From: a virus
Length of the DNA: 25,998 bases
Strand: one strand, 5' to 3'
Virus record (IMG/VR): IMGVR_UViG_3300017742_000100
Location: 1 to 25,998 of that record
Every line of letters starts with the position of its first letter. Position 1 is the first letter of the stretch. The position numbers were made by a program, and so were the translations under genes. Positions 16,483-25,998 of this stretch are shown here, piece after piece. The notes under the pieces are model-generated. The model saw nothing but the letters and a program-made list of their open reading frames with translations. It had not been told where the DNA came from and did no database searches.

Positions 16483-16884
16483 TTGAATATACGTAGACTT
16501 ACAGATAAAGACTGGGATACGTTAGTATCTTGGTGGGACAACTGGCCTAAATGGAAAGCGCCAGTAAAAGACTTTTTACCAGAAAATGGTAATGGAGGTT
16601 TAATAGTAGAAATAAATGACATACCAGTAGTAGCTGGATTTATTTATTTAACTAATTCTAAGACAGCTTTGTTAGAATGGATAGTATCTAATCCAAAGTA
16701 TAGAGAAAGTGACAGAAAAGCAGCTATAGAGCTTCTTATAACTGGTGCTGAAAACTTAGTTAAATCTCTTGATTATAAATATTTATTTGCAGTAATGCAA
16801 CATAAAGGACTAATACAAACACATGAAAAACTAGGGTGGAAGGCTGATACTAAACACTCTTACGAATTAACAAAAGTATTGTAA
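16483..16884 (+). CDS. Degenerate GNAT-fold protein, candidate T7 gp13-like internal virion protein
   Basis: A 133-aa protein with the length and strand/helix order of a GNAT acetyltransferase: IRRLTDKDWDTLVSWW, GGLIVEINDIPVVAGFIYL, ALLEWIVSNPKYR, a long helix, YKYLFAVMQHKGLIQTHEKL, then GWKAD. The acetyl-CoA loop normally reads Q/R-x-x-G-x-G/A; here it is PKYRESDRKAAIELL (71-85), with neither glycine. The enzyme is probably inactive or has changed role. T7 gp13, a 138-aa internal virion protein with a GNAT-like fold, occupies the equivalent position before gp14. The only usable start is TTG at 16483, six bases after the previous stop and in the same frame, so ATT at 16477 or stop readthrough are alternatives. 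The fold call is fairly firm; the gp13 role is inferred. Confidence 0.68.
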   Translation: MNIRRLTDKDWDTLVSWWDNWPKWKAPVKDFLPENGNGGLIVEINDIPVVAGFIYLTNSKTALLEWIVSNPKYRESDRKAAIELLITGAENLVKSLDYKYLFAVMQHKGLIQTHEKLGWKADTKHSYELTKVL

Positions 16885-16885
16885 T

Positions 16886-17545
16886 ATGGCAGTAGCAACA
16901 ACACTAGCAATAGGAGCGGCAGTAGGTGGTATCACCAGCATGGTAGGAGCTCAAGTGCAAAAAAACGAAGCTAAAAAGCAAATGGAAGCAGAAGCAGCGA
17001 AAGCTAACGATGCTAAAACTGCTTTAGAAGAATTAGAAAAGAACAGGCAAGAAGTTATTAACCCTTATGAAAATATGGCTAATGAGTTTGAAAATTTAGG
17101 CGTCGCTACTCAAGCTTCTAAGTTTCAAGCTGAAGAGGCTGACATTGCTTTAGCTAATACTCTTGATACTATTATGCAAACTGGTGGTGGTTCAGGTGGT
17201 GCAACAGCCTTAGCAAGAGCTGCTTTAGAATCAAAACGTGGTATTTCTGCTGATATACAAAAACAAGAAAAAGCTAATAACGATGCTAGAGCTGAAGGAG
17301 CTAATCAAGTACAACAACTCAAAGCTCAAGGTGAAGCTTATAAATTTGAAACTCAAGAAGCTAGAGATGTTACTGAAATGGATAGGCTTCAATCAGAACA
17401 ATTTAATGCTGAAAACAGAGAAATGATGGCTCGTAATGCTAAAATGGCAGCTAATCAAGAGATGATAGGTGCAGTTGGTAGTATGGCATCGAGCTTAACT
17501 GGTCCCGACATGTTGACTGGAAAAAAAGGTAAATTATTCGGGTAA
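16886..17545 (+). CDS. Internal core/ejection protein, candidate T7 gp14-like
   Basis: A 219-aa protein with the plan of T7 gp14. An N-terminal hydrophobic Gly/Ala segment (ATTLAIGAAVGGITSMVGA, residues 4-22) could enter a membrane. A long Ala/Glu/Gln-rich coiled coil runs to about residue 185. A second Gly/Ala/Met-rich hydrophobic patch (MIGAVGSMASSLTG) lies near the end, and the tail is basic (GKKGKLFG). In the middle is a flexible TGGGSGGATALARAALESKR. It lacks a cleavable signal peptide pattern. The start is 1 bp after the preceding stop. In T7, gp14 is ejected and forms the outer-membrane pore for DNA entry; a similar job is plausible here for a Gram-negative host. Sequence identity with T7 is not claimed, only position, size and architecture. 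Confidence 0.62.
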   Translation: MAVATTLAIGAAVGGITSMVGAQVQKNEAKKQMEAEAAKANDAKTALEELEKNRQEVINPYENMANEFENLGVATQASKFQAEEADIALANTLDTIMQTGGGSGGATALARAALESKRGISADIQKQEKANNDARAEGANQVQQLKAQGEAYKFETQEARDVTEMDRLQSEQFNAENREMMARNAKMAANQEMIGAVGSMASSLTGPDMLTGKKGKLFG

Positions 17546-17555
17546 AATATAAATT

Positions 17556-19286
17556 ATGGCAAAAGTACAAAACTACGGTAGAGCATTAGGTAGAGGTGGT
17601 GCAGCTTCAAAAAGCACGGGTGCATATGCTAACCCTCAACAAGTAACTAATCAACAGTTCGCTGACTATATAGCTAAACAAAAAAGTGTTTCTCAAATTA
17701 TGAGAGAAAATACTGCTGCATTAATAGCTAAAAACGAACTTGAAAGAGCTAAGCAAGAACAATTGTTCGCTAAACAAAACACAGAACAAAGAGCTATGTA
17801 TGATAAAGTAGCTGGTATTAAAGAAACTGGTTACGGTACTTTTGATCAAAACATGAATGACTTTTTTGGTGATCAAACAGAAAAGTATTTTAAAATTAAA
17901 CAAGGTATACAAGACGGTACTATATCTCAAATGGAAGGTAATAGAACATTGTCTTATTTAAATAATCAAGTAGTTGAATTTAAAGATTCTGTTGTTCCTA
18001 TAATGGCTCAAGTTAAACAACTACAAGAAGCTTTAAAAATACCGCCTGGACAGCCTGGCGCTATAAGTTCAAGAGTACCTACTGCTCAGCAAGAAGTTTT
18101 ATTAGCTTTATCACAAGGTGGTAATGTAAAAATAGTTGACGATAATGGTCAGCTATGTTTATTTAAACCTGGTGAAGGAGATGAAGAAGCTGCTATGATT
18201 AACATAAATGAATTGTTAAATTTAGAGAGTAATGGTAAAGAATATTTTAAAACAGTTCCTGATATATCTGAATCTTTAAAAGGTGTTTATGATAACACTG
18301 TAAAGCCTGGCGGCAAGGACAATGCAGACTTAGTAATGTTTGAAACAAAAAGAATAGGTGATCAAGAGGCTACTGTTAAGTTTATGACACCTGAACAAAG
18401 AGCTAAAGCTGCTGAATCAATGGTTGCTTCTAATCAATTTAAAGGCATCTTAGATGATGAAGAACGTATGCAGAGCATTTGGGCTGATATGATGGGTAAA
18501 GACACAGACTGGATGGATGTTGAAGGAGCTACAGCTGAAGAGACAGAAGCTAATATTAAAAAGCAAAGAGATGAAGCTGCTAAATGGATGGCTAATAAAT
18601 CTATAGAGGATAATGCTGCAGCTGATGGTATTAAAATGATACAATCTACTAGAAAGTACAAAGCACCTGGATCAGGTAAAGCAACTAAGTCAAGTTTAAC
18701 AGATCAAGCTAGAGAACAAAGATACAATGTATATGCTGAAAAATCAAACGAGCTGGTCGGTAATCCTGACAAAATAGCAGCTGCTTTAACTGAGGTAAAT
18801 CCAGTTGGCAAAACATACAGTGTGGTTGATGAAGGCTATGTAGTTGATATGATGAATGAAGAGGATTTTGACAAATATAACGACTTAGACACTAAAGAAG
18901 AAAAAACTAAGTTTGCTAACAAGTTAGCTAAAGATAATAAAATAGTTATAGGTTCTATAATTGATGAGCAAGGCGATACAATACCAGGAACTAATACTGC
19001 TGAAGGTATAAGAGCTGCTTTGGCTGATGAAGGTGGTATAAACTTAGATCAACAAACCATATATTCTCAAAGGAGATCTCAAGCTGCAGAGCAAGCTTAT
19101 AAATCAGTAGATCCAAAGCCTAGTTCTGATCAACAATTTTTTAACTATAAAGGAAGAAGATATTTAAACCCTGATTATCAAGGTGTAAACGCGAACGCGC
19201 CGTCTAAATCTTTCAAAAATCAAGGAAAACCTGGTCAAGCTGGACAACCTACTCAACAAGGTGGAGGTACTGTAACTAATCCATAA
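17556..19286 (+). CDS. Internal core/cargo protein, candidate T7 gp15-like
   Basis: A 576-aa protein of unknown fold, placed as the second internal core protein. The N-terminus is basic and Gly-rich (YGRALGRGGAASKSTGAY). Residues about 35-90 form a charged coiled coil (NELERAKQEQLFAKQNTEQR), and long helical segments follow. The C-terminal 30 residues are Gln/Gly/Pro-rich and disordered (KPGQAGQPTQQGGGTVTNP). No transmembrane segment, protease or lysozyme motif is visible. It begins 10 bp after the gp14-like gene and ends 9 bp before the giant gene. T7 gp15 (747 aa) lies between gp14 and gp16 and forms the periplasmic tube; the position here matches but the length is smaller. A tail-chaperone or scaffold function cannot be excluded. 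Confidence 0.55.
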   Translation: MAKVQNYGRALGRGGAASKSTGAYANPQQVTNQQFADYIAKQKSVSQIMRENTAALIAKNELERAKQEQLFAKQNTEQRAMYDKVAGIKETGYGTFDQNMNDFFGDQTEKYFKIKQGIQDGTISQMEGNRTLSYLNNQVVEFKDSVVPIMAQVKQLQEALKIPPGQPGAISSRVPTAQQEVLLALSQGGNVKIVDDNGQLCLFKPGEGDEEAAMININELLNLESNGKEYFKTVPDISESLKGVYDNTVKPGGKDNADLVMFETKRIGDQEATVKFMTPEQRAKAAESMVASNQFKGILDDEERMQSIWADMMGKDTDWMDVEGATAEETEANIKKQRDEAAKWMANKSIEDNAAADGIKMIQSTRKYKAPGSGKATKSSLTDQAREQRYNVYAEKSNELVGNPDKIAAALTEVNPVGKTYSVVDEGYVVDMMNEEDFDKYNDLDTKEEKTKFANKLAKDNKIVIGSIIDEQGDTIPGTNTAEGIRAALADEGGINLDQQTIYSQRRSQAAEQAYKSVDPKPSSDQQFFNYKGRRYLNPDYQGVNANAPSKSFKNQGKPGQAGQPTQQGGGTVTNP

Positions 19287-19295
19287 TAAAATTTT

Positions 19296-22200
19296 ATGCC
19301 AAAATATACAATGCGAGATTCCACAGGTCAACTGTGGCACGATATAGATGATAATAATTTTTCTGATTTTATGTCTACATATCCAGACGCTGTTATAGTA
19401 GAAAAAATAGAAGATGAAACAGGCGATGGGCAAGAAGTAAGTACTACAGATAAGCTTATACCTGAAGATCCAGTTATAGAAGAAGTTGTTGAAATTAGTC
19501 CAGACGACAAGTATAGAGATAGAATTAAAAATAAGCTTTCTGGATATGATCCTAATAAAGCTTTATTAATAGAGTCTTTTGATCATCTACCTACTGAAGT
19601 TAGGATGAAACTTAAAGATTCAGATTTTGAATTAGGTAAATCTGGAGAGTGGGATAATATAAGTGTTGAAGGTAAAAAAATTTTAGCAGGAGACAAACCT
19701 TTTAATGAATTTTTAAACGCTCAGAAAGAAGTTGGTTTTAACACAGAGGCTGGTGGAATAGCTAGTTATAGAAATTTTGACGAAAGCTCTACATATGATA
19801 ATAAATTAGGGCAGTATAATAAAGATTTATATAATGCTTTATCTAACGTTAAACAAGGAGAAATACCTACTAGTGTATTAGACGGAGATCTTGGAGCTAA
19901 AATAGTAGGCCACGAAGAAGAGCAAGTTTATGGCACTCTAAATAACCTATATGGTGATTATGGTTTTACTTTTGAAGAAACAGGTATTGGAGACAATATA
20001 AAAGTGTATGCGCCTAATGGTCAGGCAACTGAAATATCTTTAGATAATTGGACTAACGTAGGTGATAAAGAACAAGCAGCAAAATTAAAAAGTTTTTTAG
20101 ATTTAAATAAAGGCAACTATAATCCTACTAGTATTAAGAAAATGGCTACTATAGCTAATGGAGATCTAGATGTAGCTGCAATGGAAAAAATTGCTAAAGA
20201 CGAAAAAGGAGAGGGTGACTGGGACTGGGTTACTAATATTTTTAAAGAAGAAAAAGTTTCTGATGATATAGTAAAAAACTTTGATGCAATTTATGATGCT
20301 GACATTGTAAAAGAAGAAACACAAAAACTAAATAACCAGCTAATAGACGTAAACAAGCAGTATTCACAAAATCAAGCTGCGTTTAATACTTATAAATTAG
20401 ATTTACAAAACTTACAAAACGAAATAAAACAAGGTAATTTATCTAACGAAGAAATTGCACAAAGAAAAGCTTTATTAGTTAAAACAGAACAAGATATATT
20501 AGCTACTGACAAAAGATTAAGTGGCATGTACAGTAGTCAAATACAACCTTTACAAGCACAACTACAAATAGTAAATGCTAAAAAATACGTAGTAGAAGCT
20601 GAAAAAGGTAATATAGCTGGTATAACAGCAAACACTATACTAGGCGTTGGGGATAAAATAACATCTTACTTTAATGGAGGTATGCTAGCTTTAAAAGAAG
20701 ATGACATTGAAAAATATTGGAGTGAAGATCCTGAGCAAGGTAAAAAAGCTTTAGCAAGAGAAGCTGAAATGGCTATATCTAAAATGACTGAAAAGTATGG
20801 AGCTGACGTAACTAATGAATATGAACAAGAGTTTAATTCTACTGTTGCTGGCGGTGTGTATACTTCTATGGTCGAAATGGGTAGCATGATGTTAGCCGCT
20901 GGTTTAACAGGCACTGGAGCTGTTGGTTATGGAGCTTTAATGGGATTATCTATAGCTGGCGGTGAGATGGAAGAGATGATGGGTGAAGACTTTGAAGGGT
21001 TATCAATGAAAGAAAGGTTTGGTTTAGCTACGACAATAGGTGTTGTTAATGGTGCTATAGAAGGTGCTGGTGGTTATTTTGGAGGTATGATAGGTGGTAT
21101 GGGAGCTAAAGGAGTTAGTTCAGTTGTTAGAAAAGGTGTGTTAGGTAAAGTAATGAGCAAGCTAGCTGGCAAACAAGTTTCTAAAGCCGCCATTAAAAAA
21201 GCTACTAATGAAATAATAGAAGAAGGATTAGAAACAGGTGTATACGCTTTAACTAAGGCTGGTTTAAAAGCTGGTAGCGCTGAAGCTGTAACTGAAGCAG
21301 CGCAAGAAATAGCTACTATGTCTATTAAGTCTGGTGTTAATTCTTGGAAAGAAAAAGAAGTGTTTGATAAAATGGCTACTGAAATAACTATGTCAAACGT
21401 GGTTAGAGCAGGAGCTATGGGATTTTTAGCAGGTGGACCTATTGGAACTATATCTGCAGGTTATAGAGCTAGTAAAGCTAAAGCAATGGATAAAATATCT
21501 GATAGCCAATATAGAATGGCTAAAGGCTTTACACTTAATAAAGGTTTTCAAGAAGGTTATTCTCAGCATTTGCAATTGAAAGTAATGGACCCTAATGATC
21601 CTATGACTCAAGAGCAAGCTAATACAATACTTAGAGATTTGAAACAAGACGGGGCCATGATGAGAGATATAGATGGCATGAGTCTGACTATTGAAGGAGA
21701 GAAAAAAGCTTTCACTTTATTACAAAGAAAACAAAAACTACAACAGCAAGTAGATAAAGCGGCTGATAAAGCTATTGTAAAAAAACAAAGAGAAGATATA
21801 ACTCAAATAAATGAACAGTTAGAAGCTATTAGTTTGCAGTACAATTTTGAATCAGCATTTGAGGCTGGTTTAGAACAAGCTAGAGAAACAACTGAAGCTT
21901 CTGGTAAAACTTTTACAGAGTTTAATTCATCTAAAGAGTTTGAAGCTAAGATGAAAGAGCTAGGAGAACAAGATGATGCTGGTTTTAAAGGAACTTCTGG
22001 TTACATAGACAATAGTGGTAATATATATATAAATAGAGAAGCTGCTAAAAACCTTAGAGACATTTCAGTTGGTCAGCACGAGTTACTTCACGGTGTTGTA
22101 GGTAAACAACTAGGAAGCGTAGCTCCTGAAACTGTACAAGGATTTAAAAATTCTTTAACAAGCAAAGAATTACAGGTAGTAGAGAAAAGATTAAAAGATG

Positions 22201-25200
22201 ATTATGGAGTTACTAGTGTAGAAGATGCTAATGCAGAAGAATATTTTAACGCTTTAGTAGACGGAGTTGTCAAAGGGGATATTAAATATGATGAAAATGT
22301 ATTTACTAAAATAGGTAATTTTATAGTTGAAAACGTATTAAGACCTATGGGATTTTCTAATGCTCAGCTAGGTTTTAAAGATGGTAGACAAGTTTATAAC
22401 TTTGTTAAAGACTATGCTAAGCAATCAAGACGTATAGCACAAGGACAACAAGAAGGATTTGAGGGTGAAGTAGGAGACATAGTAGCAAAGGGTACTGAAG
22501 GTAGAACTACTGGAGCTAAAAGTGCTCAAAAAATTTCTGACTCTTATAAAAAAATTGATGAGTTTTCAAAAAATCCAGACTTTGATATAGACTCTGAGTT
22601 TGACACTAAAAGATTATTAAAAGAAGCTGGAGGCATTATAGAGTCAACAACATCTAGGCTTTATGACGGAACTGCTCAAATGAACAAAGAGGGTGTTTCA
22701 AGAGAAGATTTTAAAAGAGATTTAGAAGCGTTGTTTACCGAGATATACAAGGGGTACGACGAAGACATGGATGTAAACATGCAAGGTGCTGGTAGACAAA
22801 CTAGTAATCTATTTAATTTAAGAGCAAATAAATTAGCTACAGATACCTTTAAACAAACTAGCAACGAAGTAAGAGCTGACCAAAGCACCTTACAAATAGC
22901 AGCTGAAGAAGACACTTCCAAAGACACTAGAACTGATAGAGAAATAAGACAAGCGGAAAGAAAAGGAGTTAAGGTTAGAGAGAAGTTACCTAAAGTTTAT
23001 GATGTAGATACAGTGGTTAAGTCTATAAGAGACAAAGCAAAAGGAAAAAGTTTTAAAGGTAAAAACATAAAGCAATTAAAAGGTTTTGCTTTACGTGAAG
23101 TAGTTGACATGATAGCTAGAGATGATAAAGATCTTGCAGATTCTATGTTTAGAAAGTTAGAGAAAAACTCTGACCTTAATAAACCAGAAATGTTTGCTAT
23201 ACAGAACTTTATAAATTCTAATATTGATATGGCTAAAGGTTCTTTACTTGAAGGTTATACTTCAAAATTTAAATCTTCAGGAGTAGTAAATAAATTATTA
23301 GAAAAGTTTTATAATAAACGTAGTGTAAGAGCTAAGACAGGACCAGGTTTAAATATTCAAATAAAAAAACCTAATATATCAGATGTTGAATTTAAAGAGG
23401 CTTTTGGAATTACAGGTAAAGATCAAGCTAACTGGAATCAAAAAGTAGCAGCAAGTAAAGGTGGTGTAAGTGACATATTAAAAGGCTTTGTTAGAAATTT
23501 TGATCAAGTAATATCTAGTCAAGAGATTAGAGAGCAAAAGATTATTGATGGAGATGCAGAGTCTGCAAGTGAATTAGCAGAGGCTATACCTCAAGGATTC
23601 TTTTCTAAATCTTCAGATGCTAACCAAGGTAAAAGTTTTGATGAAATACTAAACGATATATATGGTATTGAAAAAATTGATAATAAACAAAAAGCTCAAA
23701 TACTAAGTGATGCTTTAAGAGTTAAATTATTTGAAAATCCAGAAGAAACTATAGGAGATATAATAAAAGCAGTAGCTAATGGATTAGAAATAAAAGAAGG
23801 TTTTGCTTATGAACAAGTTTTATATGATGTTATAAACGATGCTGTAGCTCAATATGATATACCTGGCTTGCAATTATCAGCAGGTCCTACTGAAGTTGGA
23901 GGTGCAGCAGATATAGTATTAACTTATTATGGACAAGAAATAGGTATAGAAGCTAAAAAAGGCAATGCTAGATTTGGAAGTGTTACTGCTAAATACGATG
24001 AAGACGGTAATTTAATTATTAAAAAAGACTATACTTTTAACAAATTGTTAAATAAAATGTTAAAAGATGCTAAGCCTGAAATAGATGCTTATGTAAAAGA
24101 AGCGAATATAATTGGCAAAAGATTATTTGGCAAAAAATATATTCCTATAAAATACATTACTGATGCAATACCTCAAGAAGTCTACAATGAATTACAAATT
24201 AGAGGATTTCAAAAACGTATAACTCAAAACGCGAAAGTAGATACTAATTTTGTTTCAGAATTATATTGGGCTAAACAGAATGGAACTTCTTATATTCAAA
24301 TACAAGGACTAGGAACTTATTATTTAACAGATCCTTCAAATACTAATCTTGAGAATCCATTAAATTTAGATGTTCCACCTTTTACTGCTGATTTAATATT
24401 GTCATTTGCAACTGGATCTAACACAGCTAACAATCCAGCAGCATATAACAATAATGATTTAGAAGTTAAAACTAAAAATGCAAAAGGTAATCCACTAAAA
24501 AGGGCTTTACCTGGTAGTTCAGGTTTTAGAAGAATATCACTTAGGTTTCAGCCTAGTAAACTAACTGGATTAGAAAAATCATCATTACAGCTAGATCAAC
24601 CAGCAAGTGTTGCTAAAGCTTTTAGTCAAGCTGATATTAATAATCAAATAACTAAAGAACAAGAAGGAGCTTTTAAAGATAACAAACAAGAAGGTTTTTT
24701 TAGCAAAGTAATGGATCCAAATAATACTAATAACTCAGAACTTATTAATGAGTTTAGTAAAATGGATAAGGCTTTAGAATTAGCTAACTCGCTTGATCAA
24801 CCTGTTAAAAAAATTAGAGTGTTTGATTTTGATGACACATTAGCTACTAGCAGCAACTTGGTTTTTGCTAGTAAAGATGGAGAGACTATAACATTAAATG
24901 CAGAAGAGTTTGCTAAAAAAGGAGATAAACTATTGAATGAAGGATACGAGTTTGATTTTACAGATTTTAATACTGTTAGAGATGGAGAGCAAGGCCCTTT
25001 ATTTGACATAGCTAAAAGAATAAAAGCAGCTAGAGGCAATGAAGATTTATTTGTTTTAACAGCTAGAAATCCTGATGCTCAATCAGCAATATATGAATTT
25101 TTAAAATCAAAAGGTCTAGAAATACCATTAGAAAATATAGTAGGATTAGGTAATTCAACTGGAGAAGCTAAAGCACAATGGCTAGTAGGTAAAGCAGCGG

Positions 25201-25998
25201 AAGGATATAATGATTTTTATTTTGCAGATGACGCGCTTGCTAATGTAAGAGCCGTTAAAGAAAGCATGTCTAAATTAGATGTTAAATCTAAAACTCAATT
25301 AGTAAAACAAAATAAAATACAGCCAGGTAAGTTTTCTAAAACTAAATTAGATTTTACTACTGATGAAGTTGGAAATATGAAATCTAGTTTTAACATTAAA
25401 GATAAAAATTATGTTGTTAGTTTAGACCCAGTAGATGATCAAGGAGATTATAGATACGAGTTTGAATTAAAAACTAAAACTGGCGCAACTCAAGATATAA
25501 CAGGAACCGGAGATGCTGTTGCAGTTTTTAGAAAAGTTTACAATGGTTTAGTTAATGCTATAAAACAAAATCCTAATATAAAAAGAGTTGAGTTCAGTGC
25601 CACTAAAGCAGAGCCTAGTAGAATTAGTCTTTACACTTCTCTTATGGAAAAACTAGGTAAAGATCTAGGTTGGGAAACAGATATATGGGAAACTACAAAT
25701 TGGGATGGTACAGGAAGTTTTGATTTTGAAATATCTAAACCTAGAATAAAACAATCTAGTTCGGTTGAAAGAGTATTAAACGTGGTTGATATTAAATCTA
25801 AAACTCAAGAGTCAAGAGGTAGATTTAGCAAGCAAATGAGTGATGATTTTAATAGAATCATAGAAGAAACAGAAGGTGTTGGTAGACAAAAAGTATATTC
25901 AGAAGCTAGAGCAAAACAAATAGGTAGTCAAAAAGGTAAACGTAAATTCTGGATACCTTACTCTGCTGAAGATATGCTAGGTCTTATATACCCCTTAC
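19296..25998 (+). CDS. Giant multidomain ejection/polyvalent protein (3' end outside window)
   Basis: Open from the ATG at 19296 to the window edge, 2,234 codons without a stop. Proposed packaged protein delivered with the DNA, by place (after the core genes) and size. Visible order: acidic N-terminus; coiled coil 339-442; hydrophobic Gly-rich region 516-606 and another about 700-728; second coiled coil 802-868; zincin-like motif HELLHGVVG (H928, E929, H932) with E981/E982 in AEEYFNALVD as possible third ligand; helical region to about 1430 with NKRSVRAKTGPGLNIQIKK; PD-(D/E)XK-type nuclease about 1490-1765 (helix E1506, D1539, then E1552-A-K1554); HAD phosphatase about 1838-2000 (FDFDDT, D1844 and D1846; T1922; K1959; D1978/D1979); an unclassified domain 2018-2148; then the start of another. 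Four G-x-F-S-K pentapeptides mark the later domain borders. T7 gp16 and large polyvalent proteins are the comparisons. Activities are inferred from motifs. Confidence 0.82.
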   Translation, partial: MPKYTMRDSTGQLWHDIDDNNFSDFMSTYPDAVIVEKIEDETGDGQEVSTTDKLIPEDPVIEEVVEISPDDKYRDRIKNKLSGYDPNKALLIESFDHLPTEVRMKLKDSDFELGKSGEWDNISVEGKKILAGDKPFNEFLNAQKEVGFNTEAGGIASYRNFDESSTYDNKLGQYNKDLYNALSNVKQGEIPTSVLDGDLGAKIVGHEEEQVYGTLNNLYGDYGFTFEETGIGDNIKVYAPNGQATEISLDNWTNVGDKEQAAKLKSFLDLNKGNYNPTSIKKMATIANGDLDVAAMEKIAKDEKGEGDWDWVTNIFKEEKVSDDIVKNFDAIYDADIVKEETQKLNNQLIDVNKQYSQNQAAFNTYKLDLQNLQNEIKQGNLSNEEIAQRKALLVKTEQDILATDKRLSGMYSSQIQPLQAQLQIVNAKKYVVEAEKGNIAGITANTILGVGDKITSYFNGGMLALKEDDIEKYWSEDPEQGKKALAREAEMAISKMTEKYGADVTNEYEQEFNSTVAGGVYTSMVEMGSMMLAAGLTGTGAVGYGALMGLSIAGGEMEEMMGEDFEGLSMKERFGLATTIGVVNGAIEGAGGYFGGMIGGMGAKGVSSVVRKGVLGKVMSKLAGKQVSKAAIKKATNEIIEEGLETGVYALTKAGLKAGSAEAVTEAAQEIATMSIKSGVNSWKEKEVFDKMATEITMSNVVRAGAMGFLAGGPIGTISAGYRASKAKAMDKISDSQYRMAKGFTLNKGFQEGYSQHLQLKVMDPNDPMTQEQANTILRDLKQDGAMMRDIDGMSLTIEGEKKAFTLLQRKQKLQQQVDKAADKAIVKKQREDITQINEQLEAISLQYNFESAFEAGLEQARETTEASGKTFTEFNSSKEFEAKMKELGEQDDAGFKGTSGYIDNSGNIYINREAAKNLRDISVGQHELLHGVVGKQLGSVAPETVQGFKNSLTSKELQVVEKRLKDDYGVTSVEDANAEEYFNALVDGVVKGDIKYDENVFTKIGNFIVENVLRPMGFSNAQLGFKDGRQVYNFVKDYAKQSRRIAQGQQEGFEGEVGDIVAKGTEGRTTGAKSAQKISDSYKKIDEFSKNPDFDIDSEFDTKRLLKEAGGIIESTTSRLYDGTAQMNKEGVSREDFKRDLEALFTEIYKGYDEDMDVNMQGAGRQTSNLFNLRANKLATDTFKQTSNEVRADQSTLQIAAEEDTSKDTRTDREIRQAERKGVKVREKLPKVYDVDTVVKSIRDKAKGKSFKGKNIKQLKGFALREVVDMIARDDKDLADSMFRKLEKNSDLNKPEMFAIQNFINSNIDMAKGSLLEGYTSKFKSSGVVNKLLEKFYNKRSVRAKTGPGLNIQIKKPNISDVEFKEAFGITGKDQANWNQKVAASKGGVSDILKGFVRNFDQVISSQEIREQKIIDGDAESASELAEAIPQGFFSKSSDANQGKSFDEILNDIYGIEKIDNKQKAQILSDALRVKLFENPEETIGDIIKAVANGLEIKEGFAYEQVLYDVINDAVAQYDIPGLQLSAGPTEVGGAADIVLTYYGQEIGIEAKKGNARFGSVTAKYDEDGNLIIKKDYTFNKLLNKMLKDAKPEIDAYVKEANIIGKRLFGKKYIPIKYITDAIPQEVYNELQIRGFQKRITQNAKVDTNFVSELYWAKQNGTSYIQIQGLGTYYLTDPSNTNLENPLNLDVPPFTADLILSFATGSNTANNPAAYNNNDLEVKTKNAKGNPLKRALPGSSGFRRISLRFQPSKLTGLEKSSLQLDQPASVAKAFSQADINNQITKEQEGAFKDNKQEGFFSKVMDPNNTNNSELINEFSKMDKALELANSLDQPVKKIRVFDFDDTLATSSNLVFASKDGETITLNAEEFAKKGDKLLNEGYEFDFTDFNTVRDGEQGPLFDIAKRIKAARGNEDLFVLTARNPDAQSAIYEFLKSKGLEIPLENIVGLGNSTGEAKAQWLVGKAAEGYNDFYFADDALANVRAVKESMSKLDVKSKTQLVKQNKIQPGKFSKTKLDFTTDEVGNMKSSFNIKDKNYVVSLDPVDDQGDYRYEFELKTKTGATQDITGTGDAVAVFRKVYNGLVNAIKQNPNIKRVEFSATKAEPSRISLYTSLMEKLGKDLGWETDIWETTNWDGTGSFDFEISKPRIKQSSSVERVLNVVDIKSKTQESRGRFSKQMSDDFNRIIEETEGVGRQKVYSEARAKQIGSQKGKRKFWIPYSAEDMLGLIYPL

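Follow-up and report, generated by a model that had tools for sequence, protein, structure and literature searches.

A likely ejection-protein cassette of T7/P22 layout, with an exchangeable first gene, in a crAss-like marine podovirus

Results

A conserved four-gene order follows the muzzle gene

The window analysed here is a whole virus record of 25,998 bases (IMG/VR record IMGVR_UViG_3300017742_000100), and its element of interest is a run of four genes behind the tail muzzle gene. The genes encode a 133-amino-acid (aa) protein of GNAT fold, a 219-aa all-helical protein, a 576-aa protein and a giant protein, inside whose gene the record ends (Table 1). All are on the plus strand, and the gaps from the muzzle gene through to the giant gene are 6, 1, 10 and 9 bases. 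An initial annotation had likened this arrangement to T7 genes 13-16. The order that it described, including the muzzle call, is confirmed here.

The same order is found in cultured or complete phages. Specifically, a muzzle gene is followed by genes for a GNAT-like protein of ~130 aa, proteins of ~200-300 and ~450-640 aa, and a giant protein in MW202828, Maribacter phage Panino, Flavobacterium phage elemo 6-9C, and Cellulophaga phages phi38:1 and Calle; the second gene of MW202828, whose product is absent from the hidden Markov model (HMM) matches of the 219-aa family, was equated by position. Because the order recurs in separately sampled contigs as well as in cultured phages, it goes beyond chance, and it is real and conserved. 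Among the Pachyviridae, a tRNA and a small gene separate the GNAT-like gene from the 219-like gene in phi13:2, while the GNAT-like gene is on the opposite strand in phi19:3 and Gundel. A search with the 133-aa protein (tblastn) returned 78 records at E 0.01; 68 of these are isolates on one Flavobacterium strain, so the independent cases number far fewer than 78. A sporadic insertion is ruled out, since every cultured or complete relative opened has a GNAT-like gene, namely the five phages above, phi13:2, phi19:3, Gundel, phi18:3 and phi40:1.

The record of phi40:1, whose stretch is 100% identical to that of phi38:1 over 1101 bases, notes detection by tandem mass spectrometry (MS/MS) of gp097 (ring/muzzle), gp098 (GNAT-like), gp099, gp100 and gp101. 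The last four are orthologues of the four cassette genes of the window. A note on gp98 in the phi38:1 record (NC_021796, L185) cites 'phi18:1_gp98', which does not correspond to present-day phi18:1 (39 kb, 65 features); the MS annotation is present in the record of phi40:1.

The 133-aa protein has a GNAT fold with a degenerate acetyl-CoA loop

The structure of the 133-aa protein was predicted from 34 aligned sequences (the window and metagenome loci). The model, with a predicted local distance difference test score (pLDDT) of 95.6, shows the canonical GNAT strand-helix order, and the protein is by this prediction GNAT-like, as initially proposed. Among the PDB matches listed, RimI (5isv) ranks first, with Z of 15.5 and root-mean-square deviation of 2.4 Å over 128 residues. 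The 50 PDB rows listed span Z of 13.8-15.5, where rows differing by less than 1 count as tied, and almost all are titled GNAT acetyltransferases. In BFVD, there are 75 matches at E 0.001, and rank 27 is an 'Internal (Core) protein' of Klebsiella phage P510. Consistent with the model, PF00583 is matched by 9 of 34 family members (best 2.8e-4), and the family profile matches YqjY (1mk4) at 0.0016; the window protein alone matched none of the Pfam families. It belongs to phrog_17252, a family previously without assigned function.

The acetyl-CoA loop of GNAT enzymes normally carries (Q/R)xxGx(G/A). The corresponding glycines were said to be missing from the window protein, which is true for the protein and for its family: 32 of 38 non-redundant members have no loop glycine, and none of the 38 has the usual motif at the loop. 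Elsewhere in the sequence, the motif occurs in 1 of 58 distinct family sequences. Loop position 78 is Arg in 36 of the 38 members and Lys in the other 2. Judged from these alignments, the loop is degenerate across the whole family, with the proviso that the pattern is strict and that it also misses SP6p28, which Pfam recognises as a GNAT. T7 gp13 was thought to lack the motif as well. Its own loop, RLSGKA, fits the loose pattern, but of the gp13 relatives (21 after removal of redundancy) only 4 fit at the same place. The GNAT gene is under constraint, with a ratio of nonsynonymous to synonymous change (dN/dS) of 0.08-0.29 in six pairs.

These data bear on an alternative in which the 133-aa protein still functions as an acetyltransferase, either modifying the host or as the product of an auxiliary metabolic gene, and is encoded beside structural genes by chance. 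Its GNAT fold is intact, and GNAT genes of roseophages are interpreted as metabolic in PMC6918029; the inverted or separated gene of the Pachyviridae and the phi18:3 record, in which gp115, gp120, gp121 and gp123 have MS notes and GNAT-like gp116 has none, also fit an enzyme. The loss of the loop motif from the family, the position beside the 219-like gene kept over deep divergence, and the MS/MS note on the phi40:1 orthologue make a working enzyme quite improbable.

The 133-aa family is remotely similar to T7 gp13

The alignment of the family profile (G) to T7 gp13 runs from end to end, over 112 columns (E 0.0023). With P-SSP7 added to the gp13 profile (T13w), hhalign gave E of 0.0011 over 105 columns and a score of 27.6, compared with a maximum of 19.5 among 150 versions of the 133-aa family shuffled in 7-column blocks (0 of 150 as high) and 11.1 for the reversed family. 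PF11090, the Pfam model of T7 gp13, has no match from the window protein and is absent among the 17 families matched by the 34 members, while the P-SSP7 slot protein matches it at 0.0015. The sequences argue better for a GNAT in the gp13 slot than for descent from the same gene as gp13, since the likeness may not be specific to gp13 among GNAT families.

The 219-aa family is linked to gp14 through cultured-phage orthologues

The 219-aa protein was described initially as having hydrophobic ends and a coiled coil, which agrees with its all-helix model and its hydropathy: the best 19-residue values are 1.69 (N end) and 0.82 (close to the C end), compared with 1.31 and 1.01 for T7 gp14. We compared three versions of its profile, namely P2 (seven orthologues, from five cultured phages and two metagenome contigs), P1 (the window-type majority) and P (both). 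Among 42 profile pairs, the lowest E values were obtained for G with SIO1 (0.0007, 34 columns), P2 with the gp14 profile T14w (0.00072, 162 columns), G with T13w, and P with T14w (0.0096), followed by P with T7 gp16 (T16, 0.015) and P1 with T14w (0.016). The P2-T14w score of 34.0 compares with a shuffle maximum of 21.6 (0 of 150 as high, 167 columns) and with 20.9 for the reversed profile. P1 and P2 are one family (E 1e-16). The whole family P compared directly with gp14 is not significant, with 7 of 150 shuffles as high. The gp14 link of the window protein is thus transitive, because P2 matches gp14 and is of one family with P1, whereas the direct match is not significant. With that qualification, the putative link of the 219-aa family to gp14 through its cultured-flavophage orthologues is well supported; the label 'gp14-like' of the initial annotation holds for the orthologues and not by direct comparison of the family.

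Other comparisons point in the same direction. PF24072 (gp14) is matched by 6 of 55 family members, with a best value of 0.015, among 75 mostly unrelated families; the window protein has no match to it. Against the gp14 PHROG, phi38:1 gp99 gave 0.41 along its length. The model has 88 BFVD matches, and 9 of the 50 listed carry the name internal virion protein; the first of these reaches 1.9e-5, and the remaining eight lie at 0.7 or above. Profile P also matches crAss001 gp45 over residues 139-204, at and after the transmembrane segment (E 0.0031; score reached in 1 of 150 shuffles), which fits the comparison of cargo protein gp45 to T7 gp14 in PMC10172136.

The third and fourth proteins are placed by position

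For the 576-aa protein, no convincing sequence-level support for gp15 was obtained. The family profile gave a score against T7 gp15 (F-T15) that 51 of 60 shuffles equalled or exceeded. A second version of the profile (F2-T15) was equalled in 1 of 60 shuffles, with E of 0.16 over only 32 columns. The family did not match the profiles of crAss001 gp46 or P22 gp20, and tblastn of the 576-aa protein against phages, like that of the 219-aa protein, found nothing. Third-position proteins are highly diverged, with an iterative profile from the window reaching 34 of 111, and gp15 homologues themselves are described as 7-9% identical and hard to match in PMC8954989. The initial label 'gp15-like' is therefore a matter of order and size, and kinship is not supported. 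For the giant protein, the 2234 residues present matched no Pfam family at E 0.1 and contain no recognised domain. By eye, it has HELLH at residue 928 (metalloprotease-like) and DFDDT at residue 1844 (HAD-like). The giant of elemo carries DUF3293 (4e-12).

Possibly only the order is shared with T7, the 219-aa and 576-aa proteins being unrelated to gp14 and gp15 and alike in size alone. This would account for the insignificant direct gp14 comparison of the full 219-aa family and for the 576-aa result. It is unlikely in view of the P2-T14w match, which is nearly full length and unequalled by shuffles, the unity of P1 and P2, and the Pfam and BFVD matches to gp14-type proteins.

The first position is a slot for a GNAT, a cupin-like protein or nothing

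Loci were gathered with the 219-aa protein (23, then 32, mostly repeats) and also with the muzzle, which avoids selection for the 219-like gene (best 80 of 534). We examined 145 loci, set 10 aside, and merged near-identical 219-like proteins to obtain 97 distinct loci. Five of those set aside (L025, L027, L030, L033, L034) could not be placed automatically, mostly on account of a fused ring-muzzle open reading frame (ORF), and all five have a GNAT-like gene; the muzzle is fused to the product of the preceding gene in several cultured relatives (L027, L030, L033, L034). In the other five (L104, L135, L139, L163, L169), the 219-like gene was not found within loci of 8.4-9.1 kb, which reach the end of the contig shortly beyond the muzzle or slot gene. 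Loci whose GNAT ORF has an in-frame start further upstream (such as L118, L137 and L179) were counted as GNAT.

Between the muzzle and 219-like genes, 49 of the 97 loci have a GNAT, 23 have a cupin-like protein and 25 are empty; none has both proteins. One of the 49 (L170) is divergent and was missed by the family HMM but recovered by hhalign (7.6e-7). In the 25 empty loci, the gap is -4 to 43 bases. The cupin-like protein has 143-199 aa (for example, L055:7486-7935, L064:7479-7928 and L133:8245-8712, and 20 further loci). The cupin call is weak, with PF07883 matched in 2 of 18 (best 0.02) and a profile match to a Cupin_2 structure at 0.0035. Cupins usually carry a histidine in the second motif; Arg replaces it in all 18 aligned slot proteins. 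In T7-type phages, the same slot holds gp13 (T7), a gp13-like protein (P-SSP7) or a GNAT (SIO1), or is empty (SP6 and phiKMV).

On a muzzle tree of the 97 loci, which is quick and coarse with long rows, at least 22 changes are required to explain the three slot states, compared with a mean of 41 after shuffling. The GNAT state alone needs 14, at least 7 of them forced by starred branches. In eight close relatives (L003-L008, L010, L012), the DNA of the window GNAT gene is more alike than both flanks, represented by the final third of the muzzle gene and the 5' half of the 219-aa gene. For example, identity for muzzle, GNAT and 219-aa gene is 80, 93 and 79% in L006, and 80, 94 and 79% in L012. 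Synonymous difference in L004, L005 and L012 is 0.13-0.21 for the GNAT gene and 0.48-0.50 for the 219-aa gene; for the other three of six pairs, the values are 0.33-0.39 and 0.46-0.52. Constraint on silent sites of the GNAT gene might also produce this pattern; the simpler reading is that the slot gene was probably exchanged alone, and recently.

The variability of the slot also suggests that its GNAT may have arisen independently in T7-like and crAss-like phages, in a slot that attracts small folded proteins, so that the likeness to gp13 would be convergence. The repeated swaps, the empty slots of SP6 and phiKMV, and the fact that a GNAT profile would match any GNAT to some extent all accord with it. 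The gp13 match, with the reservation on specificity made above, runs end to end over 105-112 columns, and the loop is degenerate in both lines. Weighing the two, we regard convergence as a possibility to be taken seriously, though on the doubtful side.

Because the GNAT-like gene occupies a swap slot, is inverted or set apart in Pachyviridae, and has no MS note in phi18:3, it appears to encode an accessory, exchangeable protein of GNAT fold and not a fixed component. The earlier suggestion that a GNAT fold was kept as a structural part is modified accordingly: the gene is not sporadic, but it is one of the alternative occupants of the slot.

Other features of the window

The left part of the window contains a terminase fragment, a portal gene, a scaffold-position gene, a capsid-type gene, small genes, connector-type genes (phrog_14543 and phrog_13977), the ring/muzzle-type gene and the muzzle gene; the terminase and scaffold names were assigned by position. 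The portal (phrog_6547, 8e-144) matches 87 phage records, of which 68 are from Flavobacterium, 15 from Cellulophaga, 2 from Tenacibaculum, 1 from Maribacter and 1 from Caudoviricetes.

Table 1. Tail and cassette features of the window. IVP, internal virion protein.
Feature	Position	Strand	Basis
Tail (ring/muzzle-type) virion protein, 1158 aa	11204..14680	+	phrog_14478 virion structural protein, 1.6e-45
Muzzle protein, 597 aa	14683..16476	+	PF25729 crAss_MUZ_C, E 2e-8
133-aa GNAT-fold protein (predicted), gp13 (IVP-A) position, TTG start	16483..16884	+	phrog_17252, 2.3e-32; model; gp13 profile match
Loop from strand 4 to helix 3, residues 71-85, no glycine; site of (Q/R)xxGx(G/A) in acetyl-CoA binders	16693..16737	+	
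219-aa all-helical gp14-like (IVP-B) protein, hydrophobic N end	16886..17545	+	
576-aa protein, gp15 (IVP-C) position	17556..19286	+	Order; same-position orthologues noted as virion proteins
Giant protein, gp16 (IVP-D) position, at least 2234 aa, open at window end	19296..25998	+	Order; same-position phi40:1 gp101 noted as MS-detected

Discussion

Relation to known cassettes

The cassette of the window resembles T7 genes 13-16 in the order after the nozzle, in the sizes of the first two proteins, in a GNAT-like first protein with a degenerate loop, and in a gp14-like second protein. Unlike T7, its 576-aa protein has no convincing gp15 match, its giant has at least 2234 aa and no recognised lysozyme domain, its tail proteins are of crAss type instead of gp11 and gp12, and the first slot is often cupin-like or empty in its relatives. 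The cassette of roseophage SIO1 and cobaviruses likewise has a tail appendage, an acetyltransferase, a 144-aa protein and a giant in order. However, it has no middle (C) protein, its hosts are alphaproteobacterial, and the match of the SIO1 GNAT to the window family, though lowest in E, covers only 34 columns. P22 genes 14-7-20-16 are similar to the window genes in order and sizes (151, 229, 471 and 609 aa). Profiles of P22 gp14, gp7, gp20 and gp16, which are shallow and for gp7 a single sequence, gave no link to the window families. P22 gene 14 (L188:3912-4367), between the needle gene and gene 7, is GNAT-like by eye, with no profile link. In crAss001, a muzzle, a membrane-segment protein (gp45), a second cargo protein and a giant (gp47) are arranged as in the window, but the muzzle directly adjoins gp45, which has 842 aa.

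Internal virion proteins are reportedly ancestral to most podoviruses (Hardies 2016, Virology 489:116). Shared ejection cassettes, and the equation of a GNAT with gp13, are already published for other podoviruses, so the cassette idea is less new than was first presented. A roseophage GNAT beside internal virion proteins is put forward as a possible counterpart of T7 gp13 in PMC6775973, and the likeness of gp45 to gp14 is also in print, as cited above. What is new is the extension to Bacteroidota, the loss of the loop motif throughout the family, and the alternation of GNAT, cupin-like and empty states in the slot. A slot of this kind in crAss-like or flavobacterial phages was not found in the titles and abstracts searched, which mostly exclude the subscription literature.

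Interpretation and proposed mechanism

In our interpretation, the window comes from a crAss-like marine podovirus, with relatives that infect flavobacteria, and carries its ejection-protein cassette, which has a T7/P22 layout and the working proposed below; we put the probability of this at about 0.72. The T7-style cassette in Bacteroidota podoviruses is well supported for the first two proteins, the second transitively; the rest is positional. An old, shared cassette, as initially suggested, is consistent with the order and with the gp13 and gp14 links, with no convincing support for kinship with gp15. Several observations weigh against the interpretation as a whole: the direct gp14 comparison of the whole 219-aa family is not significant, and the link runs through the seven orthologues of P2; three versions of the 219-aa profile were compared, and the version that joins both groups also gave the gp16 match; the PDB matches listed for the 219-aa model are unremarkable helical proteins, with Z of 7.1 at best and gp14 not among the 17 entries listed (21 chains), although families beyond that list may match; the 576-aa protein has no convincing tie to gp15, and the giant no recognised domain; 25 of the 97 loci have no slot gene; and the phi18:3 record has no MS note on its GNAT-like protein, unlike the neighbours.

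In the proposed layout, the tail nozzle would be followed by a small accessory protein (IVP-A), a membrane-pore protein (IVP-B), a middle protein and the giant. The 219-aa gp14-like protein would be stored in the virion and exit first, and its hydrophobic segments would insert in the membrane and start a channel. The 576-aa and giant proteins would follow, and may finish the conduit or function inside the cell. As for the 133-aa protein, it would keep a GNAT fold but have lost the usual mode of acetyl-CoA binding, and would be a protein-binding accessory, either an assembly factor or a minor component of the virion. Its partner would probably be the gp14-like protein, whose gene lies one base downstream.

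A broader proposal, which we consider speculative and rather unlikely, is that the post-nozzle place is a general podovirus docking slot for degenerate enzyme folds, either GNATs (T7 gp13, SIO1, P-SSP7 and Bacteroidota phages) or cupin pseudoenzymes. These would be exchanged as one-gene cassettes, each serving as chaperone or cap for the adjoining gp14-type membrane protein. If so, several marine-phage GNATs called auxiliary metabolic genes would be virion parts.

To our knowledge, the role of gp13 is unclear even in T7, and the occurrence of a GNAT, a cupin-like protein or nothing in one slot is a natural experiment on that role. phrog_17252 gains a testable role, and the results suggest that some marine-phage 'acetyltransferase' genes may be structural and not metabolic. 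More broadly, the interpretation would extend the T7 ejection plan to an abundant group of marine phages of Bacteroidota, which have crAss-type tails and cargo proteins that are still little understood.

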